Shown: piece by piece, positions 6,340-57,803 of the stretch
How positions within the stretch are numbered: the first letter of the stretch is position 1
Layout: each line of letters opens with the position of its first letter
From: Actinomycetota bacterium
Lineage (GTDB): Bacteria > Actinomycetota > Thermoleophilia > Gaiellales > Gaiellaceae
NCBI GenBank assembly: GCA_005888315.1
Contig: VAWH01000018.1
Location: 124,001-188,000 of the forward strand
DNA: 64,000 bases
Direction: 5' to 3'
Notes under the pieces: model-generated
Database searches by the model: none
What the model was told of the DNA's origin: nothing
What the model saw: the letters and a program-made list of their open reading frames with translations, nothing else
Program-made: the position numbers and the translations under genes

Positions 6340-7373
6340 ACGCCCGCGTCGAGAAACTGCTGCAGAAGCTCGAGGAGCCGCTGATCGTCACCACGCCGGC
6401 GAACGTGCGGTACTTGACCGGTTTCGTCAGCTCGAACGTCTCGCTCGTCGTCGAGCCGGATCGAGTCCGCCTGTTCACCGATTTCCGCTACGCGACGGCG
6501 GCGCGCGCCGTCCCGGAGGTCGAGTTCGTCGAAACCAGGCGCGACACGATCGTCCACATGGCCGAGTTCCTGTCAGGCCGGTTCGGCTTCGAGAGCACCC
6601 ACCTGACCTACCGGCACTACGAGCAGCTGCGCGACGGAGGCCTCGAGCTCGTCCCGCGGTTCGGGGTGGTGGAAAGCCTGCGCGCGGTCAAGGACGAGGA
6701 CGAGCTGGACAAGATCCGCCGCGCGGCCGCGATCACCGACCGGGCGTACGAGCAACTGGCGGACGAGCGGTTCGTCGGCCGGACCGAGCGCGACCTCGCT
6801 TGGCGGATGACCCTGTTCCTGCATGAGTTCGGGGCCGACGAGGAAGCGTTCGAGCCGATCGTCGCCGCCGGCGCGAACAGCGCCTGTCCGCACGCCGACC
6901 CAAGCGACCAGGTGATCGAATCCGGCACGACGATCGTGGTCGACGCGGGCGCGGCGCTCGACGGCTACTGCTCCGATTGCACGCGCACCTTCGCAACCGG
7001 GGAGCTACCGGACGAGCTGCGGCGCGCCTACGACGTCTGCCTCGAAGCGCAGCTCAAGGGCGTCGAGGCAGCTAGGTCGGGCATCGAGGCAAAGGTGGCC
7101 GACGCCGCTGCCCGCGGCGTAATCGAGCAGGCCGGGTTCGGCGAGAACTTCGGCCACGGACTCGGCCACGGCGTCGGCATCGACGTCCACGAGGCCCCGC
7201 GCGTCGCGGCGACGTCGACGGATTCGCTCGTCACCAACAACGTCGTCACGATCGAGCCCGGGATCTATCTGGAAGACACCGGCGGGATCCGGATCGAGGA
7301 CCTCGTGATCGTCACGGACGGCGAGGCCGAAGTGCTGTCCAACTTTCCGAAAGAGCTCCTGATCGTGAGCTGA
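6336..7373 (+). CDS. pepP: Xaa-Pro aminopeptidase / prolidase-like M24 metallopeptidase
   Basis: Cytoplasmic M24 peptidase expected to cleave peptides next to proline. 345 residues: a creatinase-type N-terminal domain (1-115, with NVRYLTGF) and the pita-bread catalytic domain. All five dinuclear metal ligands are present: Asp in VDAGAALDGYCSD, the second Asp in the same strand, His in GHGLGHGVG, Glu in TIEPGIY and Glu in GGIRIEDL. The ATG overlaps the aroQ stop; an upstream extension of the frame is a shadow of aroQ. A peptidase next to efp is a very common bacterial arrangement. Whether it prefers Xaa-Pro dipeptides (PepQ) or longer peptides (PepP) cannot be told. Confidence 0.92.
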   Translation: MNARVEKLLQKLEEPLIVTTPANVRYLTGFVSSNVSLVVEPDRVRLFTDFRYATAARAVPEVEFVETRRDTIVHMAEFLSGRFGFESTHLTYRHYEQLRDGGLELVPRFGVVESLRAVKDEDELDKIRRAAAITDRAYEQLADERFVGRTERDLAWRMTLFLHEFGADEEAFEPIVAAGANSACPHADPSDQVIESGTTIVVDAGAALDGYCSDCTRTFATGELPDELRRAYDVCLEAQLKGVEAARSGIEAKVADAAARGVIEQAGFGENFGHGLGHGVGIDVHEAPRVAATSTDSLVTNNVVTIEPGIYLEDTGGIRIEDLVIVTDGEAEVLSNFPKELLIVS

Positions 7374-7939
7374 TGGCAGAGATCGTCGGCACGAACCAGT
7401 TCCGGAACGGAATGCACATCGAGCTCGACGGCGGCGTCTGGCGGATCGTCGAGTTCCAGCACGTCAAGCCCGGCAAAGGCGGCGCGTTCGTGCGCACGCG
7501 CGTGAAGAACCTCGACAGCGGCGCGGTCGTCGACCGCACCTTCCGGGCGGGCGAGAAGTTTCCGCGCGTCCACACCGAGGTCAAGAACATGCAGTACCTC
7601 TACGAGTCCGGCGACGAGATCGTCTTCATGGACTCCGAGACGTACGAGCAGACCGCCTTGCCGCGAGAGTCGGTCGCCGACGCCATCGAGTTCATGAAGC
7701 CCTCCTCGTCCGTGCAGATGCTGATGGTCGACGGCCGACCGGCGGGCGTGCAGCTCCCGGCCTCGGTCGAGCTGACGGTTTCCGAGACCGAACCCGGCGT
7801 TCGCGGCGACACGGTGTCCAACGTGAACAAGCCCGCGACGCTCGAGACCGGCGCCACGGTGCAGGTGCCGCTCTTCGTGAACACCGGCGACCGGATCAAG
7901 GTCGACCCGCGCGAGCGGCGCTACATCTCGCGGGCCTGA
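7373..7939 (+). CDS. efp: Elongation factor P
   Basis: Relieves ribosome stalling at polyproline stretches. 188 residues with the three beta-barrel domains expected. The tip loop of domain I reads KPGKGGAF, so the residue that is post-translationally modified in other species is a lysine (Lys35), not the arginine of the rhamnosylated type; no epmA, earP or ymfI-like modifier is in the window. The C-terminal domain ends with the family signature GDRIKVDPRERRYISRA. The start shares TGATG with the peptidase. Its last 19 bases overlap the 3' end of the convergent exporter gene, leaving no room for a separate terminator. Confidence 0.97.
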   Translation: MAEIVGTNQFRNGMHIELDGGVWRIVEFQHVKPGKGGAFVRTRVKNLDSGAVVDRTFRAGEKFPRVHTEVKNMQYLYESGDEIVFMDSETYEQTALPRESVADAIEFMKPSSSVQMLMVDGRPAGVQLPASVELTVSETEPGVRGDTVSNVNKPATLETGATVQVPLFVNTGDRIKVDPRERRYISRA

Positions 7940-9198
7940 GCGACCTCGATCTCGATGCCGGTCGTCTCGTCTGCGACGACGCCGGCATGGTCGGCTGAAG
8001 ACCCACCCGTGATCCGCCACATGTCGGGGATCAGGAGCAGAGTCAGGCTAGAGACCATTGTCAGCGCGAAGGCCGCGAGCAGGGTCTCCTTGACGCCGAC
8101 GGCTTCGGCGATCGGCCCGACGATCGCGAGGCCGAGCGGGCGGAGCGCCGTCGAGCCCATCCAGTCGTAGGCGGAGACGCGCGAGAGCGCCTCCGGCGGG
8201 ACGTTCCGCTGCACGGTCGTCTCCCAGAGGGTGCCCGCAACCCCGATCGAAAGCCCTGACGCCAGCTCGGTCAGCGCGATCGTCCAGACAGGCGCGGCGA
8301 AGGCGAGCAGGACCAGGCTCGGACCGCTGAGGAGGATGATTCCCCAGGCGAAGATGAGCGGCCGCCTCGGCCGGAGCCGCATCGACCAGGCATTGCCGAG
8401 GAGCGTCCCCGCGCTGAAGGCGACCAGGATCGTCGCCCAGGCGCCGGCGCCTCCGAGCGATTGCTTCGCGACGAGCGGGCCGAGCACCATGATCGTCGCC
8501 AGGTAGATCATCTGGAAGGCGGCGAAGTCGACGATGCTCGCCCACAGCCACGTCCGCGAGCGAACCTCGCGCCAGCCGCCCGCGAGCTCCTGCCAGAAGG
8601 ACTCGCGCGGCCGCGGCGTGTAGCCGAGCGGCCGGATCCGCGCGAGTAGGACGGCGGCGAGCGCGAACGTGGCGGCGTCGCCGAGCAGCGCCCAGCCGGC
8701 GCCCACCGTCGCGACGAGCGCACCGCCTACCCCGGGCCCGACGATGCCGCCGACACTGAGCGTCAGGTACATGAGCCCGTTGGCGGCCTGGAGCTGCTCC
8801 GACGGGACGAGCTGCGGGGTCAGGCCCGACGCGGCGGGCCGGAAGACGCCGGTCGCCGCACCGTGAAGGAGTTGGAGCGCGATCAGCTCCCAGACCTGCG
8901 CGTGACCGCTGACGAGCAGCAGGCCCAACAGGCCCTGGCTGAAGAACCGCACGACGTGCGAGGCGACCATCACCTGCTGCCGCGGCAGCCGGTCGGCCCA
9001 GACCCCGCCGGCGAGGAAGAGCAGCACCTGGCCCAGAATCCGGGCGAAGAGGACGAACCCGAGGTCGGAGACGGAGCCGGTCAGATCGAGGACCGCGAAT
9101 GCGATCGCGACCGGGACAAAGAAGTCGCCTACCGTCGAGATCAGCTGCGCCCAGAAGACGCGGCGAAAGTCGCGCAGACGCAGGACTTCCGGCACCAT
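7921..9198 (-). CDS. MFS transporter, probable drug/metabolite exporter
   Basis: 425 residues with about twelve hydrophobic segments and a central cytoplasmic loop, resembling the enterobactin-exporter-like MFS_3 group. Motif A is recognisable after the second helix (GGVWADRLPRQQVM), and the motif C-like glycine-rich helix GGIVGPGVGGALVA (about residue 150) is typical of antiporters that export. No substrate can be assigned. It interrupts what would otherwise be adjacency of efp and nusB in many Gram-positive genomes, overlaps efp tail to tail, and is divergent from the BCCP operon. A TAGCTT hexamer nine bases upstream of its ATG (9208-9213 on this strand) is a candidate leaderless -10. Confidence 0.85.
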   Translation of the reverse strand: MVPEVLRLRDFRRVFWAQLISTVGDFFVPVAIAFAVLDLTGSVSDLGFVLFARILGQVLLFLAGGVWADRLPRQQVMVASHVVRFFSQGLLGLLLVSGHAQVWELIALQLLHGAATGVFRPAASGLTPQLVPSEQLQAANGLMYLTLSVGGIVGPGVGGALVATVGAGWALLGDAATFALAAVLLARIRPLGYTPRPRESFWQELAGGWREVRSRTWLWASIVDFAAFQMIYLATIMVLGPLVAKQSLGGAGAWATILVAFSAGTLLGNAWSMRLRPRRPLIFAWGIILLSGPSLVLLAFAAPVWTIALTELASGLSIGVAGTLWETTVQRNVPPEALSRVSAYDWMGSTALRPLGLAIVGPIAEAVGVKETLLAAFALTMVSSLTLLLIPDMWRITGGSSADHAGVVADETTGIEIEVAQAREM

Positions 9199-9266
9199 CG
9201 CCGCGTCAAGCTACACAGCGGGCCTGAGAAACAGCCGGTCGGCCCGCGCTAGGCTCCGGGGTCAAG

Positions 9267-11081
9267 ATGCCCGCGCTCGTCGACACGACGATCCGGTTGC
9301 TGTCCCAGGAGCCGCTCGCGGGCAGGATGCCGACGGCGGACCTGCTTCGGCTGGCCGAGGCCTTGGACGGAGCCGGCTTCGCCTACCTAGAGGTCTCCGG
9401 CGGCGGGGTCTTCGACAGCGCGGTTCGGCGTGGTGTCGAGAGCCCCTGGGAGCGGATCCGCGCACTCAAGGCGCGCACCAAGACGCCGCTCGCGATGGCA
9501 TTGCGAGGGCGATTCCTGGTCGGCTCGAGGCCCGTCGGCGCGGACTTCGCCCGCCGCTTCGTCGCTTCCGCAGCCGAGAGCGGCATCGACGTCTTCCGGC
9601 TGCACGACCCCCTCAACGACGTCTCCAACCTGCGCGAGGCCGGCGAGGCGATCACGAATGCCGAGCGCGAGTTCGATGCCGGCCTCGTCTACGGGTCGGG
9701 TCACACCGGCGAGACCGAAGATCTCGTCGAGCAGGCGAAGAAGCTGCCCGAGCTTGGCGCCGTGCGGATCCTCCTCCACGATCCTTCGAGCTCGCTCGAG
9801 CCGCACCGGGCCCATGAGCTGGTCGGCGCCCTGCGCGAGGCGAGCGGGCTCCCGGTTGGGCTCTACTGCCAGGGTGCCGCCGGCAACGCCCTCGCGTCTG
9901 CGCTCGAGGCCGTCCGTGCGGGGGCGGACCTCGTCTCCTGCGCCCTCTACCCGATCGCCCTGACACTGCACCGCGTCTCGGGCGAGGCGCTCGCGACCTC
10001 CCTCGCCGGCCTCGGGCAGGATGCCGGGGTCGACGCCGACGCCCTCTGGCGGGCGTCGGAGCTCGTCGACGAGCACCTCGGGGACGAACCGGTCACTCCC
10101 GTGGCCCCGCGGATCGCAGTCCGCGCCGCCGAGCACCGCGTGCCGCCCGGACTCGTCGCCGCGCTCGACATCCATCTACGCGCGCAGGCCGCCGGCGACC
10201 GGCTGGACGAGGTCCTCGAGGAGCTGCTGCGCGTGCGGGAGGAGGTGGGCTGGCCGCCACTCGCCGCTCCGATCGGCCAGATCCTCGGCTCGCAGGCGCT
10301 CCTGAACGTGCTCTCGGCGACGCGCTACCAGACGATGATCGACGAGCTCCGCGGGCTGGTCTCGGGCAACTACGGGTCGCCGCCGGGAACGATCGATCCG
10401 GCCGTCCGCCGTGCGGCGGAGCTGCTTTCCGACGGCGTCCCCGAAGCGGAGCCCGTCGACCTGGAGCGGCTGAGCGACGAAGCCCAGGGCCTGGCTGCGA
10501 GCGACGAGGAGCTGCTGCTGCTCGCCCTCTTCGGCGAGGAGGCGCGACCGCTGCTCGAAGCGATTCGCGGGCGTCACGCCGGCGCCGACTCGCTTGCGGC
10601 GAGCGGCGTCGACCAAGCGCGTGCCGAACGGATTCGCGAGGTCGTCCGCATCGTCCAGGAATCCGGTGTGGGAGAGATCACGATCGACGAAGGCGGCATG
10701 CGCGTCTCCGTGCGGCGGACGCCCGACCCGATCGAACCCGTCCTCGCGTCCGCCGCGGGCGAAGGATCGGTCGTGGAAGCCGAAGAGGCCGTGCCTGCAG
10801 AGCAGCCGTCGGGCGACGGCCTCATTCGCATCGAGGCGCCGATGGTCGGCACCTTCTACCGCGCTCCGCAGCCCGGCGCGCCGCCGTTCGTCGAGGAGGG
10901 CGACGCGGTCGGCCCTGGGCAGACGCTCTGCATCCTCGAGGCGATGAAGCTGATGAACGAGGTCAAGGCCGACGCCGAGGCGGTCGTCCGCGCGATCCAT
11001 GTCGGCAACGCGGAGCCCGTCGAATTCGGTCAGCTTCTGTTCGAGCTGGAACCAATCAATGGCCGGCCCTTGGGTCTCTAG
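9267..11081 (+). CDS. Degenerate carboxyltransferase domain fused to AccB-type biotin carboxyl carrier protein
   Basis: 604 residues. The N-terminal 330 residues align by eye with the PycB/OadA carboxyltransferase barrel (DTTIR, GFAYLEVSGGGVFD, SPWERIRALK, GIDVFRLHDPLNDVSNL), but only Asp6 of the metal site remains. The carbamylated Lys of the KDMAG motif is His171, the HxH pair is Tyr200 and Gln202, and the RDAHQS loop is lost. The C-terminal part is a normal AccB: the helix-strand IREVVRIVQESGVGEITI (about 450-470), an Ala/Pro/Glu linker, and the biotinyl domain with EAMKLMNE (Lys561). accC follows two bases later, so it should be the carrier of an acyl-CoA carboxylase, with the barrel as a non-catalytic scaffold (inference). 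ATG at 9267; TAGGCT at 9250-9255 is a possible -10. Confidence 0.85.
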   Translation: MPALVDTTIRLLSQEPLAGRMPTADLLRLAEALDGAGFAYLEVSGGGVFDSAVRRGVESPWERIRALKARTKTPLAMALRGRFLVGSRPVGADFARRFVASAAESGIDVFRLHDPLNDVSNLREAGEAITNAEREFDAGLVYGSGHTGETEDLVEQAKKLPELGAVRILLHDPSSSLEPHRAHELVGALREASGLPVGLYCQGAAGNALASALEAVRAGADLVSCALYPIALTLHRVSGEALATSLAGLGQDAGVDADALWRASELVDEHLGDEPVTPVAPRIAVRAAEHRVPPGLVAALDIHLRAQAAGDRLDEVLEELLRVREEVGWPPLAAPIGQILGSQALLNVLSATRYQTMIDELRGLVSGNYGSPPGTIDPAVRRAAELLSDGVPEAEPVDLERLSDEAQGLAASDEELLLLALFGEEARPLLEAIRGRHAGADSLAASGVDQARAERIREVVRIVQESGVGEITIDEGGMRVSVRRTPDPIEPVLASAAGEGSVVEAEEAVPAEQPSGDGLIRIEAPMVGTFYRAPQPGAPPFVEEGDAVGPGQTLCILEAMKLMNEVKADAEAVVRAIHVGNAEPVEFGQLLFELEPINGRPLGL

Positions 11082-11083
11082 CC

Positions 11084-12406
11084 TTGTTCTCCCGCGTCCT
11101 CGTGGCCAACCGCGGTGAGATCGCAGTGCGCGTGATCCGGGCGCTACATGAGCTCGAGATCGAGGCCGTCGCGATCTACTCGACCGCGGACAGGGAGTCC
11201 ATGCACGTGCGGCTCGCGGACCGCGCCGTCGCCGTCGGACCGGCGCCGGCATCGCAGAGCTACCTGAACATTCCGTCTGTGATCGCCGCTGCCGCGACGA
11301 CGGGTTGCGAGGCGATCCATCCGGGCTACGGGTTCCTCGCCGAGAACCCGGCGTTTGTCGCGGCCTGCGAGGACAACAGCATCGTCTTCGTCGGCCCGAC
11401 CGCCGACGTGATGGCCCGGATGGGCGACAAGGTGCAGGCGAAAGGGGAGATGGCGCAGGCGGGTGTGCCGCTCGTGCCGGGAAGTTCAGGCGCGGTCGAG
11501 CTCGCCGAGGCGCGCTCGCTTGCGGCCGAGTTGGATTACCCGATCCTGCTCAAGGCTGCCGCTGGCGGAGGCGGCAAGGGAATGCGGATCGTCGACGGCG
11601 AGGCCGACCTCGAGGGAGACTTCCAGACCGCCGCCGCGGAGGCAGAGGCCGCTTTCGGTGATCCCAGCCTCTACGTCGAAAAGCTCGTCCGCCCGGCCAG
11701 GCACGTGGAGATCCAGGTGCTCGCCGATGCGCATGGCGACGTTCTTACCCTCGGGGAGCGCGAGTGCTCCATTCAGCGGCGCCACCAGAAGCTGATCGAG
11801 GAATCGCCTTCGCCAGGGGTCACGTCCCAGACGCGGGAGGCGATGGAAACCCGAAACGCAGGCACGTTCGAGTTTCTGCTCGGCCCCGACCAGCGCTTCT
11901 ACTTCATCGAGCTGAACGCGCGCCTGCAGGTGGAACATCCGGTCTCGGAGCTGGTCACCGGCATCGACCTCGTGCGCGAGCAGCTGCGAATCGCGGCCGG
12001 CGAGTCCCTCACCGCGACCGGCCGGGCCCCGCGCCGCGGGCACGCGATCGAAGTCCGGATCAACGCGGAGGATCCCGCCCGCAACTTCGCGCCGGCGCCG
12101 GGCCTGGTCAAGGAGTTCCGGCCTCCTCTCGGCCCGGGGATCAGGCTCGACACGTTCGTCGAGGCCGGCTACACGGTGCCGCCCTTCTACGACTCCCTGC
12201 TCGGCAAGCTCGTCGTCTGGGACGAAGACCGGCCCGCCGCGATCTCGCGCACGCTGCGGGCGCTCGGCGAGCTTTCAGTGACGGGGATCCCGACCACCCG
12301 GGAGCTCGCGATCCAGGTCCTCCGCAGTGAGCAGTTCGCGAGCGGCCGCTACTCGACCTCGTTTCTGGAGGAGAGCGGAACTCGGCTCGCGGTGGCCGCA
12401 GAATGA
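11084..12406 (+). CDS. accC: Biotin carboxylase subunit of acyl-CoA carboxylase
   Basis: ATP-dependent carboxylation of the biotin on the carrier protein encoded immediately upstream. 440 residues, standard. The TTG start gives the invariant N-terminus MFSRVLVANRGEIAVR. ATP-grasp features: the Gly-rich loop AAAGGGGKGMR (about 165), the ECSIQRRHQKLIEESPSP segment, and ARLQVEHPVSELVTGIDLVREQL with metal and catalytic residues. No carboxyltransferase (accD/accA) lies in the window and the neighbouring CT-like domain looks dead, so the partner must be encoded elsewhere. The accC stop overlaps the Asp23 gene (ATGA). Confidence 0.95.
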   Translation: MFSRVLVANRGEIAVRVIRALHELEIEAVAIYSTADRESMHVRLADRAVAVGPAPASQSYLNIPSVIAAAATTGCEAIHPGYGFLAENPAFVAACEDNSIVFVGPTADVMARMGDKVQAKGEMAQAGVPLVPGSSGAVELAEARSLAAELDYPILLKAAAGGGGKGMRIVDGEADLEGDFQTAAAEAEAAFGDPSLYVEKLVRPARHVEIQVLADAHGDVLTLGERECSIQRRHQKLIEESPSPGVTSQTREAMETRNAGTFEFLLGPDQRFYFIELNARLQVEHPVSELVTGIDLVREQLRIAAGESLTATGRAPRRGHAIEVRINAEDPARNFAPAPGLVKEFRPPLGPGIRLDTFVEAGYTVPPFYDSLLGKLVVWDEDRPAAISRTLRALGELSVTGIPTTRELAIQVLRSEQFASGRYSTSFLEESGTRLAVAAE

Positions 12407-12708
12407 GCGACGAGCTCGTCATCAGCGAGCCGCAAGGAACCGTCTGCGTGCCGGCCGCGACGCTGGCGCGCATCGTCGTCCTCGCGGCCGAGCTCGCGGA
12501 CGGCGCGCGTGTCCGGCGGTCGCGCCGAGGGGTCGACGTCGAGGTCGCCGGCGAGAGCGCGACCGTCACGCTCCGGCTGGCGGCGCGCTACGGGACGGTC
12601 CTGCCCCAGGTGGCCGAGGAGGTCCAGCGGCAAGTCGCGGGGGCGCTCCAGCAGATGTGCGGAGTCGAAGTCAGGAGCGTCGAGGTCGCCATCGAGGAGC
12701 TCGTGTGA
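12403..12708 (+). CDS. Asp23/Gls24 family envelope-stress protein
   Basis: 101 residues of the Asp23 (DUF322) family: the pattern VPAATLARIVVLAAELADG, a beta-hairpin with GVDVEVAGESATVTLRLAARYG, and the helix QVAEEVQRQVAGALQQMCGVEVRSVEVAIEEL are diagnostic. In Gram-positive bacteria members associate with the membrane and respond to cell-envelope stress; a copy between accC and nusB is the standard position in many of them, where its function is not settled. Overlaps accC by four bases and nusB by four bases (GTGTGA). Confidence 0.9.
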   Translation: MSDELVISEPQGTVCVPAATLARIVVLAAELADGARVRRSRRGVDVEVAGESATVTLRLAARYGTVLPQVAEEVQRQVAGALQQMCGVEVRSVEVAIEELV

Positions 12709-13088
12709 CGCTCAGCCGCCGCGCCTCTCGCCGTACCGCCTTCTTCCTTCTCTATCAGTGGGACGTGACCGGCCAGCCGCTGGCCTCGCTCTACGAGGGC
12801 GAGGTGGACGAGTTTGCCCGCGAGACGGCCGAAGCCGTCGCGGCGCGCGTCGAGCAGCTCGACCGCCGCATCACCGCGGCTTCGGAGGGCTGGACCGCCG
12901 ACCGGCTCGGCGCCGTCGAACGCAACATCCTCAGGCTCGCGACGTACGAGCTCGACGAGGGCACCGTCCCGCTCGAGGTCGCGATCGACGAAGCTGTCAC
13001 ACTCGCCAAGCGGTACGCGACGGTGGAGGCAGGTCGGCTGGTAAACGGGATTCTCGGACGGATCGCGCGCGAGCAGGAGGTGGCATGA
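12705..13088 (+). CDS. nusB: Transcription antitermination factor NusB
   Basis: 127 residues. Forms the NusB-NusE complex that binds boxA RNA and promotes antitermination of rRNA operons. The helical-bundle signature is complete: SRRASRRTAFFLLYQWDVTG at the N-terminus and the C-terminal block VERNILRLATYELDEGTVPLEVAIDEAVTLAKRYATVEAGRLVNGILG. The GTG start at 12705 overlaps the Asp23 stop and gives exactly the family N-terminus; a longer upstream extension of the frame is a shadow. Confidence 0.96.
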   Translation: MTLSRRASRRTAFFLLYQWDVTGQPLASLYEGEVDEFARETAEAVAARVEQLDRRITAASEGWTADRLGAVERNILRLATYELDEGTVPLEVAIDEAVTLAKRYATVEAGRLVNGILGRIAREQEVA

Positions 13089-13264
13089 GTTCGAAAGATG
13101 CCTTGGAGCGGGCCGAGAGCCTGCTCGAGCGGCTGGAGCGAACGCGCCAGGAGCTCGAGTCGACGCAGGATCCCGACCGCGCGATCGAGATCCTCTCCGA
13201 GCTCGCGGAGATCGCGAAAGAGGTCGAGGCCGAGCTGGCCCGGGCGAAGAAGGAGGCCGGGTGA
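13085..13264 (+). CDS. Small coiled-coil protein, XseB-like (exonuclease VII small subunit position)
   Basis: 59 residues, almost entirely helical heptads of Glu, Leu, Arg and Lys (LLERLERTRQELE, IEILSELAEIAKEVEAEL). Size and position just before ispA match xseB in the common nusB-folD-xseA-xseB-ispA order, but the usual LE-x-GE-x-LEE-SL pattern is only loosely matched and there is no xseA here. It could be a diverged XseB or an unrelated small helical protein retained in the operon. ATG overlaps the nusB stop (ATGA) and its own stop overlaps the ispA GTG (GTGA). Confidence 0.6.
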   Translation: MSSKDALERAESLLERLERTRQELESTQDPDRAIEILSELAEIAKEVEAELARAKKEAG

Positions 13265-14031
13265 CGAGCCCTCGGGACTTGGCCGAGCTGGTCGAGGGCT
13301 ACCTCGACGAGCTGGCGCTGACCCCGGAGCTGGGCGAGCTCGCCGAGCCGATTCGCTACGCGCTCGCCGGCGGCGGCAAGCGGATCAGGCCGGTGCTCTG
13401 CCTCGCGACCGGCCAGGCGCTCGGGCGTGACCCCGAGGAGCTCCTCCCGGCGGGTGCCGCGGTCGAGCTCGTCCACAACTTCTCATTAGTCCACGACGAC
13501 CTTCCCGCCCTCGACAACGACGAGCTCCGCCGCGGACGTGCGAGCACGTGGGCGCAGTTCGACGAGGCGACGGCGGTTCTGGCAGGGGACGCGCTTCTCA
13601 CCGAGGCCCTCCGCCTGGCCCTCTCCTACCCGACCCCCTTCGTCGCCCGCGAGCTTGTGCAAGCGACGCTCGGGATGATCGGTGGCCAGCATGCCGACAC
13701 GAAGGAGCTCGGTTACGACCTCGCGGAGATCCACCGGCTCAAGACCGGCCGTCTCTTCTATGCCTCGATCGCCTGCGCGCTGTGGGTCGCCGGCCTGGCG
13801 GCGCTAGAACAGAAGCCGTGGCGGGAGTTCGCGGACGAGCTGGGGATGCTCTTCCAAGTCGTCGACGACATCCTCGACGGCGACGGCTACGTGCTCACGC
13901 ACGGCGAGGAGGGTGCGCGCACGCTCGCCGACGAGGCCGCCGGGCGCGCGCAGGCGCGGTTGGCGGCGATCGACGCGGACACCTCGGTGCTCGAGGAGAT
14001 CGTGGCGGGGCTGGCGACGCGGAGCGCCTAA
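13261..14031 (+). CDS. ispA: Trans-isoprenyl diphosphate synthase (FPP/GGPP synthase-like)
   Basis: Condenses IPP with an allylic diphosphate. 256 residues, about 40 short of typical IspA. Visible: GGGKRIRPVLC (IPP-binding Lys/Arg), the first Asp-rich motif in LVHDDLPALDNDELRRGRAS, the IHRLKTGRLF segment, and the second Asp-rich motif FQVVDDILDGDG. The helix between GMIGGQ and the Lys-Thr-Gly motif is shortened, and the C-terminus ends early. Chain length cannot be assigned reliably. The gene closes the BCCP-accC-Asp23-nusB operon and converges on the acetyltransferase gene across a palindromic repeat. Confidence 0.9.
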   Translation: MTSPRDLAELVEGYLDELALTPELGELAEPIRYALAGGGKRIRPVLCLATGQALGRDPEELLPAGAAVELVHNFSLVHDDLPALDNDELRRGRASTWAQFDEATAVLAGDALLTEALRLALSYPTPFVARELVQATLGMIGGQHADTKELGYDLAEIHRLKTGRLFYASIACALWVAGLAALEQKPWREFADELGMLFQVVDDILDGDGYVLTHGEEGARTLADEAAGRAQARLAAIDADTSVLEEIVAGLATRSA

Positions 14032-14035
14032 GCCT

Positions 14036-14113
14036 GTCCCGAGACCCGGTCCAGGGACATGACCGGCGACCGGGTCCGGGGACATGTCCCGGGACCGGGT
14101 CCGGGGACCTGTC
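14036..14113. repeat. GACC-GGTC palindromic repeat pair between convergent genes
   Basis: Two 21-base units at 14068-14088 and 14093-14113 start 25 bases apart and are identical except one base. Each has the palindromic core GACCGGGTCCGGGGAC followed by ATGTC or CTGTC. A more diverged unit precedes them from 14036. The element ends directly at the stop codon (TCA on this strand) of the acetyltransferase gene, with ispA ending just before. Fold-back of each GGACCCGGTCC-like core could act as a bidirectional terminator without a T tract. The same architecture recurs at 57757-57803. Confidence 0.75.
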
Positions 14114-15397: not shown

Positions 15398-16178
15398 GCC
15401 GGTCGAGCGTGTCGCCGTCGTCACGCACAGCGAAGAGGCCGCTGTCGCCGACGCCGTCTCGCGGCTCGAGCGCCTCGCCGAGTCGAAGGGCGTCGAGCTC
15501 ACCGGCGAGGACGGCGGGCCGGATCTGGCCGTCACTCTGGGCGGCGACGGCTCGATGCTGCGAGCCTTTCACCGCTTCCTGGACGCCGGCGTGCCCGTGA
15601 TCGGGGTCAACTTCGGCCGGGTCGGCTTCCTCACCTCGATCGAAGTCGACGAACTGGAGCAGGGGCTCGAGCGGGCGCTCGGGGGTGATTTCGCGGTCGT
15701 CGAGCTGCCGACCCTCGACGTGCGGATCGACGGCGTGAACCGGCCGGCGGTGAACGACGTCTTCGCCACCAGCTCGACGCTCGGGCGCATGGTCGAGCTC
15801 GGCTACGCCGTCGGCGGCGAGGATCTCGGCGTGCTGCCCTGCGACGGCGTCATCTGCTCGACGCCGTCGGGCTCGACCGCCTACAACCTCTCGAACGGCG
15901 GGCCGGTCCTCGTCTGGGGGCTTGACGCAATGGTGATCACCTTCGTGGCTCCGCACTCGCTGCACGTACGGCCGCTCGTCATTCCCCACAACCTTCCGCT
16001 CGCCGTCACGAACCGCACTCCGGACGGCTCGGTGACGGTGATCGTGGACGGAATGGAGCTCGGCAAGCTCGAGCCCGGGCAGCAGGTCGACGTCCGGCTG
16101 GGCGAGCAGAGATCGCTCCTCGCGACGCTGCCGGAGCGCACCTTCTTCAGTCGGTATCGCAAGACGTTCGCCTCGTGA
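15384..16178 (+). CDS. nadK: NAD kinase
   Basis: Phosphorylates NAD to NADP. 264 residues from ATG 15384, which overlaps the tlyA end. Motifs: the GGDGSMLRAF diacylglycerol-kinase-like loop (about 63), NFGRVGFLTSIE, VNDVFATSS, and the CSTPSGSTAYNLSNGGPV block. Followed by recN after a repeat tract, the same tlyA-nadK-recN order as in Mycobacterium. The last codons (KTFAS and stop) form the first copy of a motif repeated in the tandem array downstream, indicating duplication that reached into the gene. Confidence 0.95.
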   Translation: MRSGKPVERVAVVTHSEEAAVADAVSRLERLAESKGVELTGEDGGPDLAVTLGGDGSMLRAFHRFLDAGVPVIGVNFGRVGFLTSIEVDELEQGLERALGGDFAVVELPTLDVRIDGVNRPAVNDVFATSSTLGRMVELGYAVGGEDLGVLPCDGVICSTPSGSTAYNLSNGGPVLVWGLDAMVITFVAPHSLHVRPLVIPHNLPLAVTNRTPDGSVTVIVDGMELGKLEPGQQVDVRLGEQRSLLATLPERTFFSRYRKTFAS

Positions 16179-16512
16179 CCTTGGTGGATGCCTTCTCCAT
16201 TTGGAGTTAGACGGACGCCCGGGCGAAGCCCGGACGTCCTCCAGCCGGCGTCGCAAGCAACGCCTCGGCGCAAAACGTTTCGCCTCGTGACCTTGGTGGT
16301 GCGTTGTTCACTCGGGGTTAGACGGACGCCCGGGCGAAGCCCGGACGTCCTCCAGCCGGCGTCGCAAGCGACGCCTCGGCGCAAAACGTTCGCCTCGTGA
16401 CCTTGGTGGTGCGTTGTCCACTCGGGGTTAGACGGACGCCCGGGCGAAGCCCGGACGTCCTCCAGCCGGCGTCGCAAGCGACGCCTCGGCGGAAGACCTT
16501 CGCCTCGTAGAT
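16164..16512. repeat. Three tandem copies (about 110-112 bp each) of a two-hairpin repeat downstream of nadK
   Basis: This array fills nearly all of the gap between nadK and recN; I see no gene in it. Each unit runs TTCGCCTCGTGACCTTGGTGG, a short variable stretch, then GGACGCCCGGGC-GAA-GCCCGGACGTCC (hairpin 1) and GGCGTCGC-AA-GCGACGCC (hairpin 2). Hairpin cores lie at 16207-16268, 16318-16378 and 16428-16488. The 3' end of nadK (from 16164) is the first flank copy and TTCGCCTCGTAG at 16500-16511 the last. Copies 2 and 3 differ at very few positions, so the duplication is recent. Related single copies are at 31919, 46626, 47971 and 48309. Confidence 0.9.
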
Positions 16513-57756: not shown

Positions 57757-57803
57757 GACCCGGTCCCGGGCCATGTCCCGGGACCCGGTCGCGGGACCTG
57801 GCC
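57757..57803. repeat. GACC-GGTC palindromic repeat pair between convergent genes
   Basis: Units at 57757-57777 and 57782-57803, 25 bases apart, with cores GACCCGGTCCCGGG and GACCCGGTCGCGGG. The second unit ends exactly at the HD-gene stop codon (57804-57806), as the element at 14036-14113 ends at the acetyltransferase stop. The second unit matches the aroKB linker copy at 20 of 22 bases. Confidence 0.75.

Follow-up and report, generated by a model that had tools for sequence, protein, structure and literature searches.

An AccB-type biotin carrier protein of Gaiellales fused to a pyruvate carboxylase-like barrel that has lost its catalytic residues

The window, the whole 64,000-nucleotide stretch of DNA that we analyzed, from Gaiellaceae (Gaiella-group soil bacteria of the class Thermoleophilia), carries a gene whose product joins a carboxyltransferase-type barrel to the biotin carrier protein AccB and which is followed by accC. 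The features of this locus are:

7373..7939, plus strand: efp, upstream neighbour conserved in the class (locus comparison)
9267..11081, plus strand: pseudo-PycB-AccB fusion gene, an ORF with an ATG start encoding 604 amino acids
9273..10067, plus strand: HMGL-like TIM barrel, the former carboxyltransferase, residues 3-267 (Pfam PF00682, 46 bits; superposition of the AlphaFold model on 2nx9)
10131..10568, plus strand: PYC_OADA conserved carboxylase domain, residues 289-434 (Pfam PF02436, 74.6 bits)
10629..11051, plus strand: full-length AccB with N-terminal region, thumb and biotinyl domain, residues 455-595 (TIGR00531)
10947..10949, plus strand: K561, the predicted biotinylated Lys within EAMKLMNE (sequence)
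11084..12406, plus strand: accC, biotin carboxylase (NCBIfam PRK08591, 606.5 bits against a cut-off of 597)
12705..13088, plus strand: nusB, downstream neighbour conserved in the class (locus comparison)

The arrangement described in the first-pass annotation, a barrel fused to AccB and adjoining accC, was recovered by Pfam and NCBIfam searches, and accC starts 2 bases after the fusion stop codon. The biotin domain, described there as intact, is indeed so: Pfam places Biotin_lipoyl at residues 522-594, the motif EAMKLMNE is complete, and A559, M560 and K561 are invariant across 53 sequences. TIGR00531 (AccB) scores 121 bits, above its cut-off of 115.2, and since the match spans profile positions 5-155 of 156, the fusion carries a complete AccB and more than a biotin domain; E. 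coli BCCP (4hr7) aligns to residues 453-592. PRK09282 (pyruvate carboxylase subunit B) scores 400.2 bits, marginally below its cut-off of 402, and none of the 53 members of set A2 reached this model at E 4e-120 (about 402 bits). Production of AccB alone from an internal start was rejected, because a reading of the barrel-AccB junction by eye showed no ATG, GTG or TTG in frame. Consensus searches found no promoters or terminators within window positions 9000-13300.

Some other features of the window were observed as well. Its accC is missing 11 residues (AAERAAKAIGY in near relatives) that all 20 other compared AccC sequences have; the gap, in-frame and 33 bases long, falls in the ATP-grasp domain at about 11850 and is either real or an assembly error, and this accC copy could be impaired or misassembled. 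A tandem array of a 110-bp unit (16158-16508, 3.2 copies, 93% matches) lies between nadK and recN, and an array of a 25-bp GC-rich unit (14035-14113, 3.2 copies) lies between the ispA and tlyA-nadK genes; a 13-bp motif similar to the latter unit recurs at 57757-57798.

We aligned the barrel residue by residue with three solved carboxyltransferases, 5ks8 (PycB), 2nx9 (OadA) and 1rqb (transcarboxylase 5S), identifying the aligned positions by what we take to be the metal ligands of 5S, D23, K184, H215 and H217. At these positions and at that of the catalytic Thr the window protein has the following residues:

9297..9299, plus strand: L11, replacing the metal-binding Asp (alignment to 5ks8, 2nx9, 1rqb)
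9777..9779, plus strand: H171, replacing the carbamylated Lys (alignment to 5ks8, 2nx9, 1rqb)
9864..9866, plus strand: Y200, replacing the first His of HxH (alignment to 5ks8, 2nx9, 1rqb)
9870..9872, plus strand: Q202, replacing the second His of HxH, Gln in 114 of 114 Gaiellales loci (alignment, locus survey)
10266..10268, plus strand: A334, replacing the catalytic Thr (alignment, locus survey)

The window barrel has none of the four metal ligands and no catalytic Thr. The Lys, the HxH pair and the RDAHQS loop had already been listed as lost; the alignments bear this out, with the loop reading RLLSQE, and add L11 and A334. No ligands kept at shifted positions appear in these alignments, and the full set is found in none of the 114 Gaiellales loci. 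A334 stands opposite the Thr of VTPTSQ, where the solved proteins read TPTSQ or TPSSQ, and this Thr is presumably Thr882 of Rhizobium etli pyruvate carboxylase. Arg80, a presumed substrate-binding Arg, is retained in all Gaiellales loci read. According to an excerpt of PMC5895798, Thr882 is catalytically essential in the R. etli enzyme and T882A alone abolishes its CT activity. With four ligands and the catalytic Thr gone, the sequence supports the earlier view that the barrel should be unable to act as a standard PycB/OadA enzyme, and we infer that it is without carboxyltransferase activity.

The fold markers, by comparison, are retained, as had been noted. An AlphaFold monomer model made from 53 sequences has a mean pLDDT of 85.9, with values above 90 across most of the barrel. 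A fold search combining Foldseek on the PDB with VIA-align returned 5ks8 as the top Foldseek match, and the model superposes on the carboxyltransferase of Vibrio cholerae OadA (2nx9) with Z 43.6 and 2.3 Å over 426 residues, and on transcarboxylase 5S with Z 41.8. Pfam, alignment, model and superposition all assign the window barrel the PC carboxyltransferase fold.

The best sequence match among solved proteins is likewise 5ks8 (1.3e-74), the PycB of Methylobacillus flagellatus, which shares the barrel, the PYC_OADA domain, a C-terminal biotin domain and a separately encoded biotin carboxylase. Unlike 5ks8, the window protein is without the metal site and catalytic Thr, and behind its barrel stands a complete AccB including an N-terminal region, to which 5ks8 aligns over roughly the last 56 residues only. 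The fusion resembles E. coli-type AccB/BCCP (4hr7, 1bdo) in its TIGR00531 match above cut-off, its biotin motif, the adjacent accC and the presence of AccD and AccA in the genome, but it has about 440 additional N-terminal residues, which form the altered barrel. OadA and transcarboxylase 5S share the barrel fold, whereas their active sites are intact and their partners different; identity with either was rejected, as the equivalog cut-offs are far from reached (335.8 against 756.5 bits for TIGR01108, oadA). Intact PycB-AccB fusions of Actinomycetota (P0002 and 61 loci) have the same domain order, the AccB part and, in several families, the same locus, but they keep Asp, Lys, His, His (D-K-H-H) and the Thr, both of which the window protein has lost.

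The site was then compared across relatives, with GTDB families denoted by codes (f1 being Gaiellaceae). The 114 Gaiellales loci comprise the window, 28 loci of f1, three of f2, two of f3 and 80 named loci; the 80 and the 28 partly overlap (some are the same assemblies), so that 114 counts loci and not species. The survey leaves aside the G027 fusion (L005, broken across frames in the assembly), L001-L003 and barrel-less loci, and the loci read in f5, f6, f7, f9, f16 and f34 are those fetched, a subset of the class and phylum. An intact site was found in none of the 114 Gaiellales loci. The prevailing pattern is L-H-Y-Q; position 171 varies between H, N, L and D, and the catalytic Thr position holds A, S, P or Q. 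Because the altered site is common to the 80 named and 28 further Gaiellaceae loci, some from the same assemblies, it is neither chance nor artefact. A recent pseudogene or an assembly error was rejected on the grounds that the alteration is order-wide and the barrel is under purifying selection (see below).

Outside the order, 62 loci at 57 distinct places had D-K-H-H and Thr intact; they belong to f6, f9, f7act and further Actinomycetota. Five of the 62 (L140, L144, L146, L157, L158) are a place fetched twice, and in one the Asp position falls past the sequence end. The locus order aroC-aroKB-aroQ-pepP-efp-fusion-accC-nusB, then tlyA, nadK and recN, is shared with f9 and f7act, whose fusions at that syntenic place are intact at D-K-H-H and Thr. 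The f6 fusion at the syntenic locus is also intact, but accC is absent from the locus. An intact f9 member (P0002) reaches 833.7 bits against the PycB model PRK09282, above its cut-off, and 140.3 bits against AccB. As orthologues with an intact site occur at the syntenic place in sister families, and further ones elsewhere in Actinomycetota, we conclude that the ancestor of the window form was an active PycB-AccB fusion. The question of whether all relatives carry the same losses therefore has a divided answer: all Gaiellales loci share them, but relatives with an intact site do exist outside the order, and these account for the origin of the window barrel without making it active. The suggestion of a dedicated scaffold does not hold as regards origin, since the barrel derives from an active fusion and was not purpose-built.

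Two local differences in gene order were seen. In f6 (L042, L043, L157-L169), nusB directly follows the intact fusion. In the window and in L004, an MFS transporter gene (window 7921-9198, minus strand) lies between efp and the fusion; at most other loci efp is immediately upstream of the fusion, with no intervening MFS gene.

With accC adjacent to the fusion, the remaining acetyl-CoA carboxylase (ACC) subunits of the window genome are encoded elsewhere, AccD and AccA being adjacent on contig C66. In a sample of 80 genomes searched for partner enzymes, AccA was present at E < 1e-90 in all 48 class genomes carrying the fusion, and all six genomes from f8, f10, f11 and f12 have neither fusion nor AccA, which strongly supports the proposed link to an acetyl-CoA carboxylase. 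The fusion is the sole AccB-type match above 80 bits in 47 of the 48, G106 being the exception. AccA occurs without the fusion in three genomes (G010, G028, G040), so it does not depend on the fusion everywhere. From this gene content, use of the window fusion by AccDA is probable. In E. coli, the AccB N-terminal region contacts biotin carboxylase; since the fused AccB has its own N-terminal region, the barrel is unnecessary to explain AccC docking. As separate observations, the second AccB-type match of G106, a Gaiellaceae genome, adjoins AccA (G106:C185:28536-29836) and is perhaps contamination, and the six f8, f10, f11 and f12 genomes, which have no AccA-type ACC or AccB, presumably use acyl-CoA carboxylases instead.

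We consider it likely that the fusion is the BCCP subunit of a housekeeping AccABCD-type ACC, with a barrel that is now a conserved non-catalytic platform derived from an active PycB-AccB ancestor. AccC, encoded by the next gene, would load the biotin of the fused arm, and AccD and AccA would be supplied from contig C66. In the ancestor, one AccC-fed biotin arm would have swung either to the built-in barrel, turning pyruvate into oxaloacetate, or to AccDA, yielding malonyl-CoA; once the metal site and the catalytic Thr had gone from the Gaiellales barrel, the ACC job alone would have remained. The retained barrel would be a folded, constrained platform, most simply a dimerisation or assembly module holding AccB and AccC. 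PC carboxyltransferase domains dimerise, and the excerpt of PMC5895798 describes dimers of PC without its BC domain, so that by analogy the barrel may be a dimer platform that spaces AccB and AccC.

Selection on the barrel was followed by NG86 estimates of dN/dS against the same-genus loci L060, L061, L062 and L004 (dS about 0.6-0.9; L004 and L061 give identical values and are possibly one assembly). The barrel gave 0.034-0.053 compared to 0.082-0.125 for accC; the AccB value for L060, 0.238, comes from a short stretch that aligned poorly. In comparisons with less closely related Gaiellaceae, where dS is near saturation, values were similar for barrel (0.19-0.33), AccB (0.19-0.43) and accC (0.22-0.30). 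The Gaiellales barrel is not decaying. Its kept fold, lost catalytic residues and purifying selection are, on sequence grounds, those of a putative pseudoenzyme.

Barrel divergence relative to accC, calculated after dropping pairs with an accC distance <0.05, was 0.74 in f9, 0.71 for 16 phylum-wide loci, 0.66 in f26 and kin, 0.91 in f31/f51/f45 and 0.51 in one f7act pair, all with intact sites. Where the site is lost, the ratio was 1.15 in Gaiellales, 1.82 in f5, 1.60 in f16 and 1.87 in one f7ps pair. The AccB/accC ratio was 1.28-1.69 in intact and lost-site groups alike. This pattern indicates that site loss accompanies a partial release from constraint of the barrel only, and least so in Gaiellales.

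Position by position, 58 barrel residues are identical in the intact and the Gaiellales forms, with conservation of at least 95% in each, and 23 positions are fixed differently between the two, many of them lying near the old site as judged from their location in the barrel (S44, R82, F83, H113, P115, P173, Y200 and Q202 are included). Such changes are as compatible with a newly acquired binding role as with a simple scaffold. The Gaiellales barrel could thus have been re-purposed to bind a small molecule or protein, for example an ACC regulator, at the reshaped entrance to the old site, a reading to which the invariant Q202, the very low within-genus dN/dS of the barrel and the conserved Arg80 also lend weight. 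We nevertheless think it unlikely, since position 171 is too variable for any single new catalytic residue to have replaced the Lys, the same positions are mostly unfixed in f5 and f16, and the Gaiellales-wide ratio of 1.15 exceeds that of the intact form. It is quite improbable that the barrel persists as a passive remnant, retained because AccB would fold poorly without it or lacks a separate start codon: the junction, read by eye, and the more rapid evolution of the barrel in f5, f16 and f7ps (ratios 1.6-1.9) agree with this, but the barrel dN/dS in the window genus lies below that of accC, 58 positions are conserved across both forms, and a complete fold is predicted with high confidence. 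Continued carboxyltransferase activity of the barrel, by a metal-free mechanism or on a different substrate, is hardly credible in spite of the kept fold and Arg80, as all four ligands and the catalytic Thr have changed to variable replacements and the Thr882 substitution alone is enough to abolish activity in the R. etli enzyme (PMC5895798, excerpt).

Site loss is not confined to Gaiellales. In f5 (18 of 18 loci read), the Asp is retained, the Lys is replaced by Ser, Ala or Val, and HxH is gone; both f7ps loci have Ser, Lys, Asp and Asp at the four ligand positions. All 12 f16 loci retain Asp or Glu and the Lys but not HxH (one locus is without the Asp region) and have Gly in place of Arg80, and in f34 the Lys is replaced by Met in three of three loci. 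We built trees of the barrel, accC, five neighbour genes and AccB, and carried out AU tests on the barrel and accC, with groups named after the first trees had been seen. One common loss for all groups was rejected on accC (AU p 1.65e-63) and weakly on the barrel (p 0.041), and f16 with f34 stands clearly apart from the class in the trees.

For f7ps, the trees disagree. The barrel tree unites it with Gaiellales and f5 (100/100), and a grouping with f7act is rejected on the barrel (AU p 0.00025), which would suit the less likely history of a single loss within the class plus gene exchange. However, f7ps falls with or near f7act in the accC tree, in that of the five neighbour genes and, loosely, in that of the AccB part of the same ORF; a single clade of Gaiellales, f5 and f7ps is only marginally rejected on accC (AU p 0.046). 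The reading that we favour is that the placement in the barrel tree probably reflects long-branch attraction, of which the tree program warned, and that the f7ps loss was probably independent. A single loss may underlie both Gaiellales and f5. The residue changes differ, and the number of lineages with a loss is at least two, probably three and up to five. Collectively, the domain seems to have been converted from an enzyme to a structural part more than once.

The dual role of the ancestral arm can be considered in genomes with an intact fusion. In 11 of these (G002, G044, G056, G006, G018, G048, G072, G369, G267, G281, G423) the fusion is the sole biotin carrier found (AccB profile, E up to 0.001), and all 11 have AccA; its arm should therefore serve both AccDA and its own barrel, which suggests that the intact fusion probably served pyruvate carboxylase and acetyl-CoA carboxylase together. 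A second, separate AccB is present in f31 and f45, so the fusion there may be a pyruvate carboxylase only.

Within the window's order, a PYC_OADA match was found in 70 of 78 genomes, eight having none, and only four of the 70 (G126, G165, G209, G243) have a second strong one; in the window genome the single PYC_OADA protein is the fusion itself. An alternative oxaloacetate source there is PEP carboxylase (E 4.3e-264). As PEP carboxylase matches of real strength occur in only six of 18 sampled Gaiellales (G000, G009, G039, G085, G189, G181), with a fragment alone in G129, the substitute for pyruvate carboxylase differs among Gaiellales. Seven f5 genomes (G007, G031, G043, G055, G073, G109, G122) have a separate full-length pyruvate carboxylase.

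A different situation was noticed in five f7 genomes that are 93-97% complete (G010, G028, G040, G064, G070), in which no AccC-type biotin carboxylase was found, searches giving either nothing or matches of 1e-4 to 1e-7 in large CarB-like ORFs. In G010, G040 and G028 (L226, L227, L228), AccD lies beside AccA and no AccB over cut-off was found, and an intact cluster of the 12S-5S-1.3S type is present at L050 and L051. Such f7 genomes may make malonyl-CoA by transcarboxylation, without ATP or biotin carboxylase.

Biotin carboxylases are a classic case of domain shuffling, and here the PCT domain sits in an apparent ACC carrier subunit. In the excerpted text of Lombard and Moreira (PMC3199775), this domain is not found in other biotin-dependent carboxylases and has oxaloacetate decarboxylase alpha as its homologue. 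Searches of the open-licence PubMed Central literature gave no account of a PCT-AccB fusion with an inactive barrel, in keeping with the first-pass view of a form not previously described. More tentatively, we put forward a broader scheme that we rate as plausible though a little short of probable. In many Actinomycetota, ACC and pyruvate carboxylase would be one machine, with one biotin carboxylase, one PycB-AccB arm, a built-in pyruvate site and a separate AccDA. The pyruvate site would have been switched off independently several times (in Gaiellales with f5, in f7ps, and in f16 with f34), through different residues each time, and the barrel would have become an obligatory ACC platform, newly specialised in Gaiellales and hardly ever deleted.

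If the intact form serves both enzymes, anaplerosis would be linked directly to fatty acid synthesis via one biotin arm, and, if this is true, the repeated loss of one activity would provide natural knock-outs for testing the dual role. For annotation, calling the window protein a pyruvate carboxylase would credit Gaiellales with an enzyme that is apparently missing from most of them.
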